A stretch of DNA of 64,000 nucleotides, taken from positions 1 to 64,000 of the forward strand of contig DUEV01000006.1 of NCBI GenBank assembly GCA_011170375.1, written 5' to 3'. Both the position numbers and the translations under genes were made by a program. This DNA is from Dehalococcoidia bacterium (GTDB lineage: Bacteria; Chloroflexota; Dehalococcoidia; Dehalococcoidales; Fen-1064). This document shows positions 7,305-32,129 of the stretch, piece after piece. Position 1 is the stretch's first letter. Each line of letters opens with the position of its first letter. The notes beneath the pieces were generated by a model. The model was not told where the DNA came from and searched no databases. It worked only from the letters and a program-made list of their open reading frames with translations.

Positions 7305-7538
7305 CTAGTCCTCGCCCCGCAGCTCCTTCCAACGCTCTTCTCCGAGGCACTGGCGGGCGTAAGCACACCAGTCGATGCAGGAAGGCACCTTGTCCTTGTA
7401 GACCTTCTCGCCACACTTGTGACACTTCACCTTCAGCTCATCGGAGAAGATTTCCACCTCGGCGCCACAATTGGGGCATTTATGCAGCGATACCCTGAGG
7501 TTTCTCATATCCTGTCCGGGACACTTCATCGTCATCAC
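7305..7538 (-). CDS. Small zinc-ribbon/cysteine-rich protein
   Basis: CPNCGAEVEIFSDELKVKCHKCGEKV…CIDWCAYARQC. Confidence 0.7.
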   Translation of the reverse strand: MMTMKCPGQDMRNLRVSLHKCPNCGAEVEIFSDELKVKCHKCGEKVYKDKVPSCIDWCAYARQCLGEERWKELRGED

Positions 7539-7744
7539 ACTTAACTCCCCGCTATATCGCTCCCAATTTCTAAAGCATTATTGTAATAATACATCTATAT
7601 TACACCTCATACTGTAACTAATGTCATACCACGAAGTAATCACCAACGTGATAGAATACAGCATTGACAGTTTCTAGGAATCGATTTAATATTTCGCCAA
7701 CGAACCGAAGGTTAAGGGCGTGAGTACGGAGGTGAGGTACCATA

Positions 7745-7984
7745 ATGGCAGAAAAGAACGTGGTGATTTACAGCACCCCCACCTGACCCTATTGCCACCG
7801 GGCGAAAGAGTATCTTTCGCAGAAAGGTATTGCCTACACCGACTATGACCTCTCCAAGGACCGTGACAAGATCGAGGAGATGGTCGAGAAGTCCGGTCAG
7901 ATGGGTGTCCCCGTAATAATCATTGATAACAACGTTGTAATAGGGTTCAACCAGGGCAAAATAGACGAACTACTGGCCAGCTAA
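7745..7984 (+). CDS. Glutaredoxin/NrdH-like selenoprotein (UGA at codon 14 read as Sec, UPYC active site)
   Basis: RBS ggaggtgagg; MAEKNVVIYSTPT(U)PYCHRAKEYLSQKGIAYTDYDLSKDRDKIEEMVEKSGQMGVPVIIIDNNVVIGFNQGKIDELLAS*; TGA at 7784-7786 replaces the usual first Cys of CPYC; bSECIS-like hairpin follows. Confidence 0.9.
7802..7820 (+). promoter_or_regulatory. bSECIS-like stem-loop
   Basis: GCGAAAGA-GTA-TCTTTCGC, perfect 8-bp stem, loop starts with G; 23 nt between UGA and the loop G. Confidence 0.8.
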
Positions 7985-8017
7985 CTGTAGAGAGACAATG
8001 TGTTTCAGGAGGCAGCC

Positions 8018-8929
8018 ATGTATGACCTGATGATTATCGGCGGTGGGCCTGCCGGGCTGGCCGCCAGTGTGTATGCGGCGCGCAAGCAACTGAAGACACT
8101 GCTAATCAGCCAGGACATCGGTGGGCAGGTGAACTGGACATTGGGCATCGAAAACTACTTGGGCTATCAGTTCATCGAGGGGCCGGAACTGATTAGCAAG
8201 TTCCAGACACAGGTAGACCAGTTTCCCATTGACCAGAAGATCGGCGAGAAGGTCTCCCACCTCGAGGAAATAGATGGTGGCTTTGAGGCTATATCCGAGG
8301 CCGACGAGCGCTACCAGGCCAAGGTCGTCATCCTAGCCACCGGCAAGAAGCCACGAAAGTTAAACGTACCCGGTGAGGACGAGCTTACGGGCCGGGGTGT
8401 GACATACTGCGCCATCTGTGATGGCCCCATCTTTGCCGGACAGCGCGTTGCTGTCATTGGCGGGGGCAACTCAGCCTTAGAAGCCGTATTGGACACGGTA
8501 AAGATTGCCGAACACGTCGATTTGGTCTCCCTGACCCCCTTGACCGGCGATCCCATTCTGATAGACCAGCTACCCGGGGGTGATAAGCTCGCCATCTACA
8601 CGGAGCACCAGACAGAGAAAATCGAGGGTGAGATGCTGGTCGAGGGGATTCAGATAAAAGACATCAAAAGTGGCGAGGTGAAGCGGCTCGATGTTACCGG
8701 GATCTTCATCGAAATCGGCCTGATTCCAAACTCAGACGCAGTCAAGTCCCTCCTCGAACTCAACAAATCGGGGGAAGTGCCGGTAAACAACGCCTGTGAG
8801 ACGGCTTTACCAGGACTCTACGCCGCCGGAGACGTGACCGACATTCCGGAGAAACAGATAGTAGTGGCTGCCGGAGAAGGCGCTAAGGCAGCCCTTCAGG
8901 CACACCGTTACCTGCAGCGACTGGGGTAG
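8018..8929 (+). CDS. trxB: Thioredoxin reductase-like flavoprotein
   Basis: GGGPAGLAAS, CAICDG active site, GGGNSALE; immediately downstream of the Sec-glutaredoxin. Confidence 0.85.
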   Translation: MYDLMIIGGGPAGLAASVYAARKQLKTLLISQDIGGQVNWTLGIENYLGYQFIEGPELISKFQTQVDQFPIDQKIGEKVSHLEEIDGGFEAISEADERYQAKVVILATGKKPRKLNVPGEDELTGRGVTYCAICDGPIFAGQRVAVIGGGNSALEAVLDTVKIAEHVDLVSLTPLTGDPILIDQLPGGDKLAIYTEHQTEKIEGEMLVEGIQIKDIKSGEVKRLDVTGIFIEIGLIPNSDAVKSLLELNKSGEVPVNNACETALPGLYAAGDVTDIPEKQIVVAAGEGAKAALQAHRYLQRLG

Positions 8930-8930
8930 A

Positions 8931-11600
8931 TTACTCCGCCGCCAGATACTTCTCCGGGTCCTGGTCAAAAGCCTTCTTGCAGCCGACAGCACAGAAATAA
9001 TAGGTCTTTCCCTTGTATTCAGAGGTAGCTGCCGCTGTGCTCTCCTCCACTTCCATGTGGCATACCGGGTCAATCGCCATTGCCACACCTCCTTTGTCCG
9101 TGTCTGGTTCGAGCGTCTCGAACCGCACCGGCTTGAATCTTCGTAGTCTTAATGAGTTAGATACCACCGTCAGCGAGCTGGCCGCCATCGCTGCCGCTGC
9201 CAGGATAGGATTCAGAAAACCATAGTCACCGAGGATGAAACGGGCCCCGGAAGGTACTCCGGTCTGCCCGAAAACGAGATAGAGTACGCCGGCGGCCACC
9301 GGGATGAGAAGGGTGTTGTAGGCAAACGCCCAGAAGAGGTTCTGCTTTATCGTCCGCACGGTGCTCCGGCTCATTGATATCGCGGTCACGATGCCACTGA
9401 GGTCACCACGAATCAGGGTAATATCCCCGGTCTCCATGGCAACATCAGTGCCGGTGCCGATGGCAATTCCGACGTCCGCCTGAGCCAGTGCTGGGGCATC
9501 GTTGATTCCGTCCCCCACCATCGCCACCACCTTACCTTCTGCCTGGAGCTTCTTTACCTCCTCGGCCTTATGCTCCGGTAATACCTCGGCGAGGACCCGA
9601 CTGATTCCCACCTCTTGGGCGATGGCCTCGGCGGTACGACGATTGTCACCGGTAAGCATCATTGTCTCAATTCCCATCTGCTTCAGCCTCGCCACGGCTT
9701 CTTTAGCGTTAGGCTTGAGAGTATCGGCTACAGCAATGATACCGATTACTTGGTCATCTATACCAAGGAACATAACCGTCTTTGCCTGCTCGCGAAGTCG
9801 CGCCGCCTCTTCTCTCAGACCATCAAGTGAGATATGCCTGTCTTCAAACAGCCTGAGGTTACCGAGAAGGAGTTTCTTGCCTTCAACCGATGCCTCCACC
9901 CCATGCCCCGGTATGGCACTAAAATCGGCTACCGTTGACATCTCAAGACCCATCTCCGTGGCTGCCCGGATAATCGCCTCGCCGAGCGGGTGTTCCGAGC
10001 CATGTTCGGCAGAAGCCGCCAGACGCAGCACTTCCTCACGGGAAGAGGATGGAACGGCAATAACGTCGGTCATTCTGGGCTCGCCCTGGGTAAGGGTACC
10101 CGTCTTGTCGAGCAGGACAGTGTTTATTTTGTGGGTACGCTCCAGTGCCTCGGCGCTCCGGATAAGAATGCCGTTCTCTGCCCCTTTACCGGTACCGACC
10201 ATGATGGCGGTCGGGGTCGCCAGACCGAGAGCGCAGGGACAGGCGATGATGAGTACGGCCACAAAGTTGAGCAAGGCGAAGGTAAGCGCCGGCGCCGGCC
10301 CCACGAAGTACCAGACCACAAACGTAATCAGGGCGATACCGATAACTATCGGCACGAAGTAGCTGGCAATAACATCGGCCAGTCGTTGAATCGGTGCCTT
10401 GCTCCCCTGGGCCTCTTCCACCATGCGGATAATCTGGGCCAGGGTTGTGTCCTTACCCACCCGGGTCGCTTCGAACTGGAAGCTGCCGGTCCTGTTGATG
10501 GTGGCCCCGATAACTCCATCACCCACATTCTTCTCCACCGGCATACTCTCGCCGGTGACCATTGATTCATCGATACTGGAATACCCCTGCCGGACAACGC
10601 CATCCACGGGGACGCGCTCACCCGGTCGCACCAGGATTATGTCACCTACCTGGACATCCTCCACCGGTATCTCCGTTTCCTGACTATCACGAATAACGAG
10701 CGCCGTCTTCGGCTGCAAACCGATTAGCTTCTTTATCGCCGCCGATGTCTGCCCCTTGGCTCTGGCCTCGAGGAATTTACCCAGCGTAATCAGGGTGATA
10801 ATCATGGCGGAGGTGTCGAAGTAGACATTACGCTCCAGTACCTCGGTAGCAAAGATTCCGGGAAAGAGTACCGCGACCACGCTATAGAAATAGGCCGCCG
10901 AGGTGCCAACGGCAATCAGGGTATTCATATCAGCAGTCCGGTGCCGGAGTGCCCCCCACATTCCCTTGTAGTAGCGCCAACCTGCCCAGAACTGCACCGG
11001 CGTCGCCAGCCCCCAGAGCAGATAGAGCTTTCCGGCAAAATCGGGTACCCACATCAGGACAAAGATTGGAATTGCCAGTGCAGCCGCAACGAGCAGCCGG
11101 TTCCGCACCTGCCGGACTTCACGCTGAGCAGCGGTGGTAACGTCCTCGAGTGTCTCCGCCTCGGTACCTAACGTGTAGCCGGCCTCGGACACCGCCCGCT
11201 TGAGGTCGGCTACATTCGTCCCTTCAAGATACTCGACAGTTGCTTTCTCCGAGGCCAGGTTGACATTGGCAGAAACAACCCCCGGGACACCAGAAAGGGC
11301 CTCTTCAACACGTGCCACGCAGGCAGCACACGTCATACCTGTTACCGGGAATATTGATTTCTTTGTGGCAGCCCCGTAGCCCAGCTCTGAGATGGTGTCC
11401 TTAATCTTGCCCAGGTCTACCTGCGAAAGGTCGTACTCAATCGAAGCCTTCTCCGAGGCAAAGTTAACCCTGGCCGATTCTACCCCCGGCGTTTCCATGA
11501 GGCCCTTCTCGATGGTGGCGGCACAGTTGGTGCACGTCATCCCGGTAACAGGAATGACAGCCTTTTCCTTTTTATTTGTACCCCTTGTCCCAGCAGCCAC
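8931..11600 (-). CDS. copA: P1B-type Cu+ ATPase with two N-terminal HMA domains and a C-terminal YHS/TRASH domain
   Basis: Two GMTCxxC motifs, [22 protein letters not shown]-terminus [11 protein letters not shown]…[11 protein letters not shown]. Confidence 0.9.
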
Positions 11601-11769: not shown

Positions 11770-12405
11770 ATGGTAACATCGGTCTTGCTCCGGGAAATCG
11801 GCTAGAAAGAGAGCGATAAGGACGAAATCGTAAATAGAGTTATCAGGAACCCGGAGCTGATTTCTGAGATTATCGAAGGCCTGGGGGCTAAAAAGGCCCG
11901 GATTAAATACGGCTGTGCCAAGATTCTCCGCCTGCTCAGTGAGAAGAAGCCCGAACTTCTATATCCCAGGTTCGATTTCTTTGCTGACCTCCTCGATAGT
12001 GAGAATAGCTTTATCAAGTGGGACACCATTCATGTCCTCGGTAACCTGGCTGCTGTAGACTCGGAGGGCAAATTCGAAGAAATCCTCGACCGGTACCTCG
12101 CCCCCATCCCCGGCCCCGTCCTGATTACGGCCGCCAACGTCATCGGTGGGGCTGGCAAGATAGCGCTGGCCAAACCAGCGCTTACCGAGAGGATTACCAG
12201 AGAGCTTCTGAAGGTCGAGAGGGCCCGATACCAGACGGACGAGTGTCGTAATGTGGCGCTGGGACAGACTATCGACTCATTCGACCAGTTCTTTACTCAG
12301 ATTGAGGACAAAGGAGCGGTAATTGCCCTGGTGCAGAGGCAGCTTCAAAACACACGAAACGCCACCAGAAAGAAGGCCGAGCGATTCCTGAAAAAGTGGG
12401 GATAG
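11770..12405 (+). pseudogene. HEAT-repeat-like protein with in-frame TAG at codon 12
   Basis: RBS ggagg; MVTSVLLREIG*KESDKDEIVNRVIRNPELISEIIEGLGAKKARIKYGCAKILRLLSEKKPELLYPRFDFFADLLDSENSFIKWDTIHVLGNLAAVDSEGKF…; frame open from 11806 to TAG 12403-12405; no ATG/GTG/TTG near after the amber codon. Confidence 0.65.
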
Positions 12406-12424
12406 TTGGGCACGTCGGTATACA

Positions 12425-13735
12425 CTAAGAGAGCATCATTTCATCAACCGTAGTATAGCGGCGGGCTTTCGGGGGGCGGACCGTCGTCATCAGGAGTGCT
12501 GCAATCACGAACAAGCCAGCGATGACCATGAAGGCCGGCTTGTAAGAGCCCATTACATCGAAGACGATATTCATAGCCAGCGGGCCGATAGCGCCGAACC
12601 CGAAAGCCATAAAGAAGGCAATGGAGCGGACCAAGCCCAGACTGAAGCGGCCAAAGTAATCTGCCCATATTGTCCCCTGCATCACGCCAATCCCCGACAT
12701 ACCTATACCATAGACCGCCACTGCTATCCATAGAAATGCCGGTTGCTCAGCCACGAGAAAGAGAATCGCTGCCACGCCCTGGATAGCGAAAGGTATGACG
12801 CGAACAAAGAGTTTCTGTGAATGCTCGATGAGGAGTCCCATGAACGGCAGCGAAGTTGCCATGATTGCAGCACGCACCGTCATCACCGATGCTACCATTG
12901 TATCCGCATAGCCCAGGTCTTGAATGTACGGCGCCAGACTGATATTGATTCCCTGAAAAGCCATGCTGCATGCTCCAAAGGAAATAGCAAGTATCCAGAA
13001 TGTCCGCGTCGCCAGCACTTCCCGACGACTCCATATCGGCTCCCTGAGTGCCATACCGTTGCCAGCTAATTCATCCTCGTTGTTGTCCCCTGCCCTGGTG
13101 TGATTGGGGTTGATTCCATCGGGGTATAGTCCCATATCTTCCGGTCGGCGGCGCATTAGCAGGAGCGAAGGGATAAGTACCACCAGCCACGTGATGACGG
13201 CGAAGACAACGAACATCGTCCTCCAGCCACAGGCACCGATTATAAAAACGGTAAGAGGCACGAAGGCCATGTTACTGATGTTGCTCCCGAGGCGGGCAAT
13301 GGCGATAGCCCGGCCACGCTTCTTTACGAACCAGTTATTTATGGCTACGTCTGTTACCAGATTGCCCATCAAGGTGAACCCGAGCGCGACGATGATACCC
13401 CGCAAGAGGTAGAACTGCCAGATAGCATCGATCTGGGTTACAGCGAGCATAGCCAGTCCGACGATAATGGCTCCAGCAGGCATTAATACTCGGGAGCCGT
13501 ACCGGTCGATAAACGGGCCAACGATGGGAGCAACCATCGCCTCGGCCACTCTGGCAATTGTCTGTACTGCCGCCAGAGCACTGCGGTTCCAGCCAAACTC
13601 GTTCTGAAAGGGCCTGAAGAAGAACCCCAGCATGGACGAGTGATGCTCGGCATAGGCGAGATGGGCCATAAATGAGGCCGCGACTACATTCCAGCCGTAG
13701 AAGTAGCGGGGCTTTTTCCTGGTAGTATCAACCAT
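12425..13735 (-). CDS. Major facilitator superfamily transporter
   Basis: 12-TM MFS pattern, starts MVDTTRKKPRYFYGWNVVAASF. Confidence 0.85.
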   Translation of the reverse strand: MVDTTRKKPRYFYGWNVVAASFMAHLAYAEHHSSMLGFFFRPFQNEFGWNRSALAAVQTIARVAEAMVAPIVGPFIDRYGSRVLMPAGAIIVGLAMLAVTQIDAIWQFYLLRGIIVALGFTLMGNLVTDVAINNWFVKKRGRAIAIARLGSNISNMAFVPLTVFIIGACGWRTMFVVFAVITWLVVLIPSLLLMRRRPEDMGLYPDGINPNHTRAGDNNEDELAGNGMALREPIWSRREVLATRTFWILAISFGACSMAFQGINISLAPYIQDLGYADTMVASVMTVRAAIMATSLPFMGLLIEHSQKLFVRVIPFAIQGVAAILFLVAEQPAFLWIAVAVYGIGMSGIGVMQGTIWADYFGRFSLGLVRSIAFFMAFGFGAIGPLAMNIVFDVMGSYKPAFMVIAGLFVIAALLMTTVRPPKARRYTTVDEMMLS

Positions 13736-30235: not shown

Positions 30236-30580
30236 ATGAAAGTCGATTTTTATTGCTGGGCGAAGTGAAATACCTGTCGTAAGGCGAGGGAGTTTCTTTC
30301 GCAAAAGAATGTGGAAATAAACGAGCGTGATTTCTTCAAGAATCCCTTTAACCAATCTGAGATAGAGGAGCTGATTCAGGGAAAACCAGCTTCGGAGATG
30401 TTCAATTTCAGGAGTCCCAGCTTCAAGCAACTCGGCCTAGAACGCGACAAGCTGAACGACAAAGAGCTTATCGACCTTATGCTGAAAGAGCCAAGACTTG
30501 TCCGCAGGCCTGTAGTACGCATCAATGACAAAGTGTATTTCAGCGCTGACAGGTCAGTCCTGGAGGGTCTTGTCAATTAA
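30236..30580 (+). CDS. ArsC/Spx-family selenoprotein (UGA at codon 11 read as Sec, UNTC)
   Basis: RBS aggag; MKVDFYCWAK(U)NTCRKAREFLSQKNVEINERDFFKNPFNQSEIEELIQGKPASEMFNFRSPSFKQLGLERDKLNDKELIDLMLKEPRLVRRPVVRINDKVYFSADRSVLEGLVN*; TGA 30266-30268. Confidence 0.88.
30284..30302 (+). promoter_or_regulatory. bSECIS-like stem-loop
   Basis: GCGAGGGA-GTT-TCTTTCGC (8 bp with two G:U), loop starts with G; 23 nt between UGA and the loop G. Confidence 0.78.
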
Positions 30581-31116: not shown

Positions 31117-31584
31117 TTGAAAAGAGGTGTAAAGATTAAAACCGTACAGATCTATAATGCTAGACAGAACAAGGTGGCAGAGGTAGAGAAGATCGAGAAG
31201 TCTGATGCTGACTGGAAGAAATTACTAACAAAGAAGCAGTATGAAATCACGACCAGGAAAAGAACGGAATCTCCAGGCACATGTCCCTTCAATACAATCC
31301 ACGAACCAGGTATCTTCCAGTGTGTACGCTGTAACACTCACCTTTTCCGTAGTTCCACCAAGTTCGAATCGGGGACAGGGTGGCCCAGCTTCTATGAACC
31401 GGTCTCAGATTTGAACATAGTCGAGGAGACAGACAGGAGTTCAGGAATGATACGGATAGAGGTGCTTTGCGCCCGTTGTGGCTCACACCTTGGTCATGTT
31501 TTCGATGATGGCCCGCCACCTACTGGCAGACGGTATTGTATGAACGGTCTCGCATTGAAATTCGTATCCGAGGGTCAGCTATGA
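31117..31584 (+). CDS. msrB: Peptide methionine (R)-S-oxide reductase
   Basis: FESGTGWPSFYEP…RCGSHLGHVFDDGPPPTGRRYCMN. Confidence 0.92.
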   Translation: MKRGVKIKTVQIYNARQNKVAEVEKIEKSDADWKKLLTKKQYEITTRKRTESPGTCPFNTIHEPGIFQCVRCNTHLFRSSTKFESGTGWPSFYEPVSDLNIVEETDRSSGMIRIEVLCARCGSHLGHVFDDGPPPTGRRYCMNGLALKFVSEGQL

Positions 31585-32129
31585 ACCAAACAGCCTCATC
31601 AGAAGTCACTACACTCGCCGGCGGCTGTTTCTGGTGCATCGACGCGGTCTTCAGGGAGATTGAGGGCGTTAATCATGTTGTTTCCGGCTACACCGGTGGC
31701 ACTGCTGCTAATCCAAACTACAAGCAGGTCTGCACCGGTACAACTGGCCATGCTGAAGCGGTTCAGATGAGCTTCAATCCTTCAAAGATATCTTATCGGG
31801 AAATACTGGAGATTTTCTTCTCTATCCATGACCCAACGACATTGAACCGTCAGGGCGCGGATGTAGGCACACAATATCGTTCAGTAATTTTCTACCACAA
31901 CGAGCAGCAAAAGGCCGTCGCTGAAAAAATCATTGAAGAGCTTGATGAGGCTCATGTGTGGAAGAATCCGATTGTCACTGAAATTTTACCGCTCGGTAAG
32001 TTCTATCCTGCAGAAGACTACCATCAGGGATACTTCTCAAAGAATCCACGACAAGGATACTGCCAGATGATAATTTCACCCAAGGTGAATAAGTTCCGCC
32101 AGCAGTGGACAAAGCGCCTCAAAATATGA
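31581..32129 (+). CDS. msrA: Peptide methionine (S)-S-oxide reductase
   Basis: TLAGGCFWCIDAVFREIEGV…GHAEAV; ATGA overlap with msrB. Confidence 0.92.
   Translation: MNQTASSEVTTLAGGCFWCIDAVFREIEGVNHVVSGYTGGTAANPNYKQVCTGTTGHAEAVQMSFNPSKISYREILEIFFSIHDPTTLNRQGADVGTQYRSVIFYHNEQQKAVAEKIIEELDEAHVWKNPIVTEILPLGKFYPAEDYHQGYFSKNPRQGYCQMIISPKVNKFRQQWTKRLKI

Follow-up and report, generated by a model that had tools for sequence, protein, structure and literature searches.

The window, by which we mean the whole 64,000-nt stretch analysed here (contig DUEV01000006.1 of an anaerobic Dehalococcoidales bacterium), carries a small glutaredoxin gene with an in-frame TGA, a flavoprotein reductase gene immediately behind it and a P-ATPase gene that faces the pair (Table 1). 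The start at ATG 7745, the TGA at codon 14 and the TAA at 7982-7984, from which an initial annotation had proposed a UPYC selenoprotein, were all found in the sequence as claimed, and so was its strong ribosome-binding site, with purine-rich SD-like sequences at the position matching GGAGGTGAGG in homologous loci. The read-through product (MAEKNVVIYSTPTUPYCHRAKEYLSQKGIAYTDYDLSKDRDKIEEMVEKSGQMGVPVIIIDNNVVIGFNQGKIDELLAS) matched Pfam Glutaredoxin PF00462 over the whole model (4.8e-21) and NCBIfam GlrX_YruB (TIGR02196) at 5.3e-29, with 100.5 bits against a cut-off of 88.55, which agrees with the complete glutaredoxin fold announced for the frame beyond the TGA. It also scored above the cut-off of the broad Uxx_star subfamily (NF041212, 1.4e-20) and below the cut-offs of UXX-star families 1-3 (NF041114, NF041211 and NF047338; 54/72, 53/100 and 36.8/97 bits, respectively). 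The closest solved structure by sequence in the PDB was 7c10, a glutaredoxin. We take 7c10 and 7c12 to be Grx1 of Clostridium oremlandii from the description in PMC7642778, the text of which does not give the PDB code. Cys17 and P56 of the cis-Pro motif were invariant among the glutaredoxin homologues. Beyond the TGA, comparison with close relatives gave dN of ~0.08-0.18, dS of ~0.63-0.98 and dN/dS of ~0.12-0.19, i.e. this part of the frame is under purifying selection. It should be added that a 77-aa Cys-rich, zinc-ribbon-like protein with no family above cut-off is encoded divergently from the glutaredoxin (7305-7538, minus strand); it was found with 95% identity at the same place in locus L027, and also near L042 and L021.

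Table 1. Features of the glutaredoxin locus and of the related selenoprotein gene in the window.
Feature	Position	Strand	Remarks
Shine-Dalgarno sequence GGAGGTGAGG of the glutaredoxin gene	7728-7737	+	Direct sequence reading
YruB-type glutaredoxin selenoprotein gene	7745-7984	+	79 aa + TAA; active site U-P-Y-C
In-frame TGA read as selenocysteine	7784-7786	+	Codon 14; Cys homologues have their invariant first Cys here
bSECIS stem-loop GCGAAAGA-GUA-UCUUUCGC	7802-7820	+	Kept in TGA homologues; fits the bSECIS model
AhpF-like/thioredoxin-reductase-like flavoprotein gene	8018-8929	+	CAIC active site; presumed glutaredoxin reductase
Copper-type P-ATPase gene	8931-11600	-	Small Cys-containing C-terminal domain; faces the glutaredoxin-reductase pair
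ArsC/Spx-like selenoprotein gene	30236-30577	+	U-N-T-C active site; TGA 30266-30268

Among the best 30 homologous loci retrieved from the order, the window's copy included, codon 14 was TGA in 16 and Cys in 14. As the initial annotation had placed it, the TGA takes the position of the first active-site cysteine of CPYC, aligning with Cys in the 14 homologues. A TGA lies one base from the Cys codons TGC and TGT, and the host assembly consists of 17 contigs at 94.7% completeness, both of which would suit a true stop or a sequencing or assembly error, which would make the gene either a pseudogene or a Cys-type glutaredoxin gene with a miscalled base. We regard this as extremely improbable in view of the same codon being TGA in 15 other retrieved loci, the purifying selection 3' of it, the stem-loop kept only in TGA copies (see below) and the presence of Sec machinery. 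A search of the host genome for selA, selB and selC, the lack of which would have spoken against the proposal, revealed all three plus selD, located within 6.5 kb of one another on contig C8; the tRNA-Sec (selC) has the anticodon TCA and was confirmed with ARAGORN. Contig C8 is separate from the window's contig, and contamination as the source of the Sec genes was considered and ruled out by a genome of the same genus (G053), assembled as a single contig on which selB and the TGA glutaredoxin occur together. The glutaredoxin has the same coordinates in G053 as in CP070842.1 (Dehalococcoidales bacterium isolate bin10). Because both genes reside on this one contig, the miscall and contamination explanations fail alike.

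The selD gene of the host (G000, contig C8, ~12021-13070, minus strand; locus L049) has an in-frame TGA of its own near 13019, and because this lies near the gene's start, SelD is probably a selenoprotein too; the fold 3' of that TGA was unlike the glutaredoxin stem-loop.

The stem-loop downstream of the glutaredoxin TGA consists of 8 bp, with the 5' arm at 7802-7809, the loop GUA at 7810-7812 and the 3' arm at 7813-7820. The hairpin and its loop had been described correctly, and the distance of 23 nt from the UGA applies to the loop G (7810), whereas the stem itself begins at 15 nt. Published bSECIS criteria (PMC13188914) comprise a loop of 3-9 nt, a stem of 4-16 bp, a G within the first two loop positions, a distance of 16-37 nt from the UGA and a minimum free energy of at most -7.5 kcal/mol. 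With its GUA loop, 8 bp, 23 nt and about -8.6 to -10.0 kcal/mol when considered alone, the element at 7802-7820 falls within all these ranges, and it was kept in 16 out of 16 TGA homologues, so that the earlier assignment to bSECIS stands. Energy-based folding gave an ambiguous answer when applied to the window copy by itself: the minimum-energy structure was a competing 10-bp hairpin (-14.7 kcal/mol vs about -8.6 to -10.0 for the bSECIS). Because the window copy prefers this other hairpin, single-sequence folding would have misled, and it was the comparison of homologues that singled out the 8-bp stem. An Rfam search of the region returned nothing beyond one chance match.

When the same peptide was recoded synonymously, only 0.25% of the sequences gave a perfect Watson-Crick stem of at least 8 bp with a suitable G loop. 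At the fixed register, 7-8 of the 8 Watson-Crick pairs were formed in 16/16 TGA homologues vs 1/14 Cys homologues (p = 1e-7, which, like the other p-value given here, overstates the evidence because related sequences are not phylogenetically independent), and the loop was GUA or GUU in all 16 TGA copies. Where TGA copies shared the same residue, codons under the hairpin were identical in 89% of comparisons vs 47% elsewhere; the corresponding figures for Cys copies were 39% and 47%. Synonymous freezing under the hairpin is limited to TGA copies, and the stem-loop tracks the TGA, not the protein. The computed support covers the gene, the codon, the decoding machinery, the conserved stem-loop and the gene pairing. 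We infer Sec insertion itself and put the probability that 7745-7984 encodes a Sec-containing glutaredoxin at about 0.93.

Across the order, selB was present in 40 of 45 genomes with a TGA copy vs 22 of 42 with Cys copies only (Fisher p = 0.0003, likewise overstated by relatedness), and the five TGA-bearing genomes with no selB match were all incomplete (61-88%). Two Cys copies from genus g3 of the window's own family retained traces of the element: L026 formed 7/8 pairs with a loop AUA that lacks the conserved G, and L032 formed 6/8 pairs. In their genomes (G048 and G047, respectively) selB was not found at 1e-60, and in G045, also of genus g3, both selB and a TGA copy were present. The picture at these two loci fits a recent replacement of Sec by Cys after which the bSECIS decays, as PMC1794560 reports for other families. 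About three Sec/Cys changes (bootstrap range 3-4) were counted on the tree of the 79-aa proteins; the number is approximate and deep directions are left unclaimed because this tree is poorly resolved. Longer frames of ~170-190 aa that contain a glutaredoxin domain, and in many cases a TGA, were also common across the order (e.g. in G030-G037), including near-complete small genomes of family f10, and possibly represent a fusion selenoprotein; no such longer frame was found in the window's genome.

The host genome was searched for TGA-N15-GCGARRGAGTNTCTTTCGC, allowing at most 3 mismatches. The sites retrieved were the glutaredoxin, the gene at 30236-30577, a gene on contig C12 and the palindrome of the glutaredoxin site. 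The gene at 30236-30577, absent from the ordinary ORF listing, matched Pfam ArsC (2.7e-16) and TIGR01617 above cut-off, and its near-identical stem-loop, GCGAGGGA-GUU-UCUUUCGC, has the same spacing from the TGA as in the glutaredoxin. Its paralogue on C12 (position 213130) is ArsC/Spx-like with UxxC as judged from the read-through sequence. When the glutaredoxin was compared with each of the ArsC-like genes, 16 of 19 hairpin positions were identical, against 7-10/18 and 10-11/23 in the flanks. In 156 genomes, the TGA-N15-hairpin pattern occurred at 40 sites in 34 genomes vs none for the reversed control, and at every site the encoded UxxC led into a helix (AKEYLS, AKEFLS and the like). The likeness of the hairpins is partly forced by this peptide, common to the thioredoxin-fold helix, and across the families it may reflect shared ancestry, convergence or coding constraint.

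The flavoprotein gene starts with ATG at 8018, 33 nt past the glutaredoxin TAA, and is preceded by the SD sequence AGGAGG (8007-8012). The initial annotation had a thioredoxin reductase following directly; the adjacency was confirmed, and the identity was revised, as the protein most resembles the C-terminal, reductase portion of AhpF. Its best solved relative was the AhpF reductase domain 1fl2 (5.1e-75), and NCBIfam gave 327.6 bits for AhpF (C-terminal part) vs 289.8 bits for TrxR, the latter below the TrxR equivalog cut-off. The protein keeps CxxC, lacks HRRxxxR, the NADPH motif, when read against AhpF, and is devoid of the AhpF N-terminal Trx-fold domain, whose place a separate small redoxin could naturally take.

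The proposed pairing of a Sec glutaredoxin with a reductase proved common and not universal: the two genes adjoined in 22/30 loci from many families (9/16 TGA and 13/14 Cys), some of the negatives being cut by contig ends. In five TGA-bearing genomes (G052, G053, G042, G130 and G108) the AhpF-like reductase was not found genome-wide, and these had only canonical TrxR, 34-39% identical to it. Because several relatives keep the TGA glutaredoxin without it, the AhpF-like neighbour is not the sole possible donor. A canonical TrxR encoded elsewhere (in the host at C3:27566-28462, 37% identity) or a low-molecular-weight thiol might serve the Sec redoxin instead, the neighbour having another role, and ref. 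109 of PMC13188914, by its title, has GSH bound by C. oremlandii Grx1. We hold this to be the less probable arrangement, perhaps a one-in-four matter, for the genes lie 33 nt apart on the same strand and are adjacent in most loci, the natural substrate of AhpF-type reductases is a fused Trx-fold domain, which this protein lacks, and GshB (PF02955), which the glutathione search covered, had no match in the genome. That the neighbour is the main electron donor of the glutaredoxin is therefore the reading we favour, with some reserve.

With the flavoprotein as donor, the following course may be envisaged. SelB-tRNA(Sec) would insert Sec at UGA 7784-7786 as directed by the stem-loop; Sec would act as the nucleophilic active-site residue, its selenolate attacking a disulfide or an oxidised substrate, and Cys17 would resolve the mixed selenide-sulfide. 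The Se-S bond would most likely be reduced by the adjacent flavoprotein with NAD(P)H, the pair forming a thioredoxin-like reducing system with no need for glutathione. We infer the preference for NADH, the reductase as donor and all substrates. Since the AhpF-like reductase has neither the N-terminal domain nor the NADPH motif, the pair is probably a disulfide-reducing system of the Cp34/Cp9 kind. In Clostridium pasteurianum, Cp34 and Cp9 are reportedly a TrxR-like protein and a small glutaredoxin-type redoxin that reduce AhpC. AhpC as electron acceptor was dropped here, as no AhpC-type peroxiredoxin was found in the 94.7% complete genome, the sole PF00578 match of which was a 177-aa membrane-anchored TlpA/ResA-like protein.

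A role of Sec in binding a metal or metalloid, as suggested for UXX-star, would make the gene part of metal handling. The neighbouring copper-type P-ATPase and its tail-to-tail position with the glutaredoxin or the glutaredoxin-reductase pair in L020, L027, L029 and L038, hinting at a copper/redox link, would accord with this, as would the Uxx_star subfamily score and the metal binding proposed for UXX-star in PMC13188914. The glutaredoxin shares with UXX-star the Trx-fold and Sec at the first active-site position, but it stays below the cut-offs of families 1-3, keeps the second Cys (the resolving Cys17, invariant as in dithiol redoxins) and is the closer match to YruB glutaredoxins, which renders metal binding rather unlikely next to disulfide reduction.

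A broader proposal joins two parts: that a near-fixed bSECIS (UGA-N15-GCGARRGA-GUN-UCUUUCGC) is common to the glutaredoxin and ArsC/Spx-like families in Dehalococcoidales, and that the Sec redoxin and the AhpF-like reductase constitute a dedicated anaerobe reducing system with a non-peroxiredoxin acceptor. Both together we advance only tentatively.

Standard gene callers cannot represent 7745-7984 and would either drop the gene or set its start after the TGA. Within Dehalococcoidales, one small redoxin exists in Sec and in Cys versions that form a clear natural series, and some of the Cys copies have a decayed stem-loop and no selB match in the genome (L026 and L032). The rules of Sec gain and loss and the recognition of bSECIS by Chloroflexota SelB thereby become directly testable. 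The AhpF-like pairing adds a concrete hypothesis for the reduction of a Sec redoxin in an organism where GshB was not found. The AhpF-like partner, the bSECIS common to two families and this natural series add modest interest.

Sec glutaredoxins as such are established, as PMC13188914, PMC1794560, PMC1088965 and PMC7642778 indicate. Grx1 of C. (Alkaliphilus) oremlandii is a native selenoprotein and, as here, a single-domain glutaredoxin with U-P-x-C and a Sec nucleophile, according to PMC7642778; it comes from another phylum, and the AhpF-like reductase as partner distinguishes the present system. The same paper proposes Grx1 as the reductant of a Sec MsrA, a partner ruled out here, where the only MsrA found in the genome, 24 kb from the glutaredoxin, carries the usual Cys in its active site (GGCFWC). 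MsrB-like and MsrA genes lie side by side in the window (31117-32126, plus strand). For C. pasteurianum, a reference title cited in PMC3720550 names an NADH-dependent TrxR-like protein with a glutaredoxin homologue. By description, Cp34/Cp9 share with our pair a TrxR/AhpF-like flavoprotein without the N-terminal domain and a separate small redoxin; their acceptor AhpC has no counterpart detected here, and Sec on the redoxin is a feature of the present system. The bacterial selenoprotein predictor paper PMC12013277 does not mention the lineages of this analysis, and the consulted parts of the surveys PMC1794560 and PMC1088965 name no Chloroflexi glutaredoxin. The Sec glutaredoxins of Geobacter, Moorella, Alkaliphilus and the Sargasso Sea reported there have UxxC and a bSECIS, as here, from different lineages, the likeness of the bSECIS being one of description. 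The kind of protein is already described (C. oremlandii, Geobacter, Sargasso Sea), and the Dehalococcoidales example is new.
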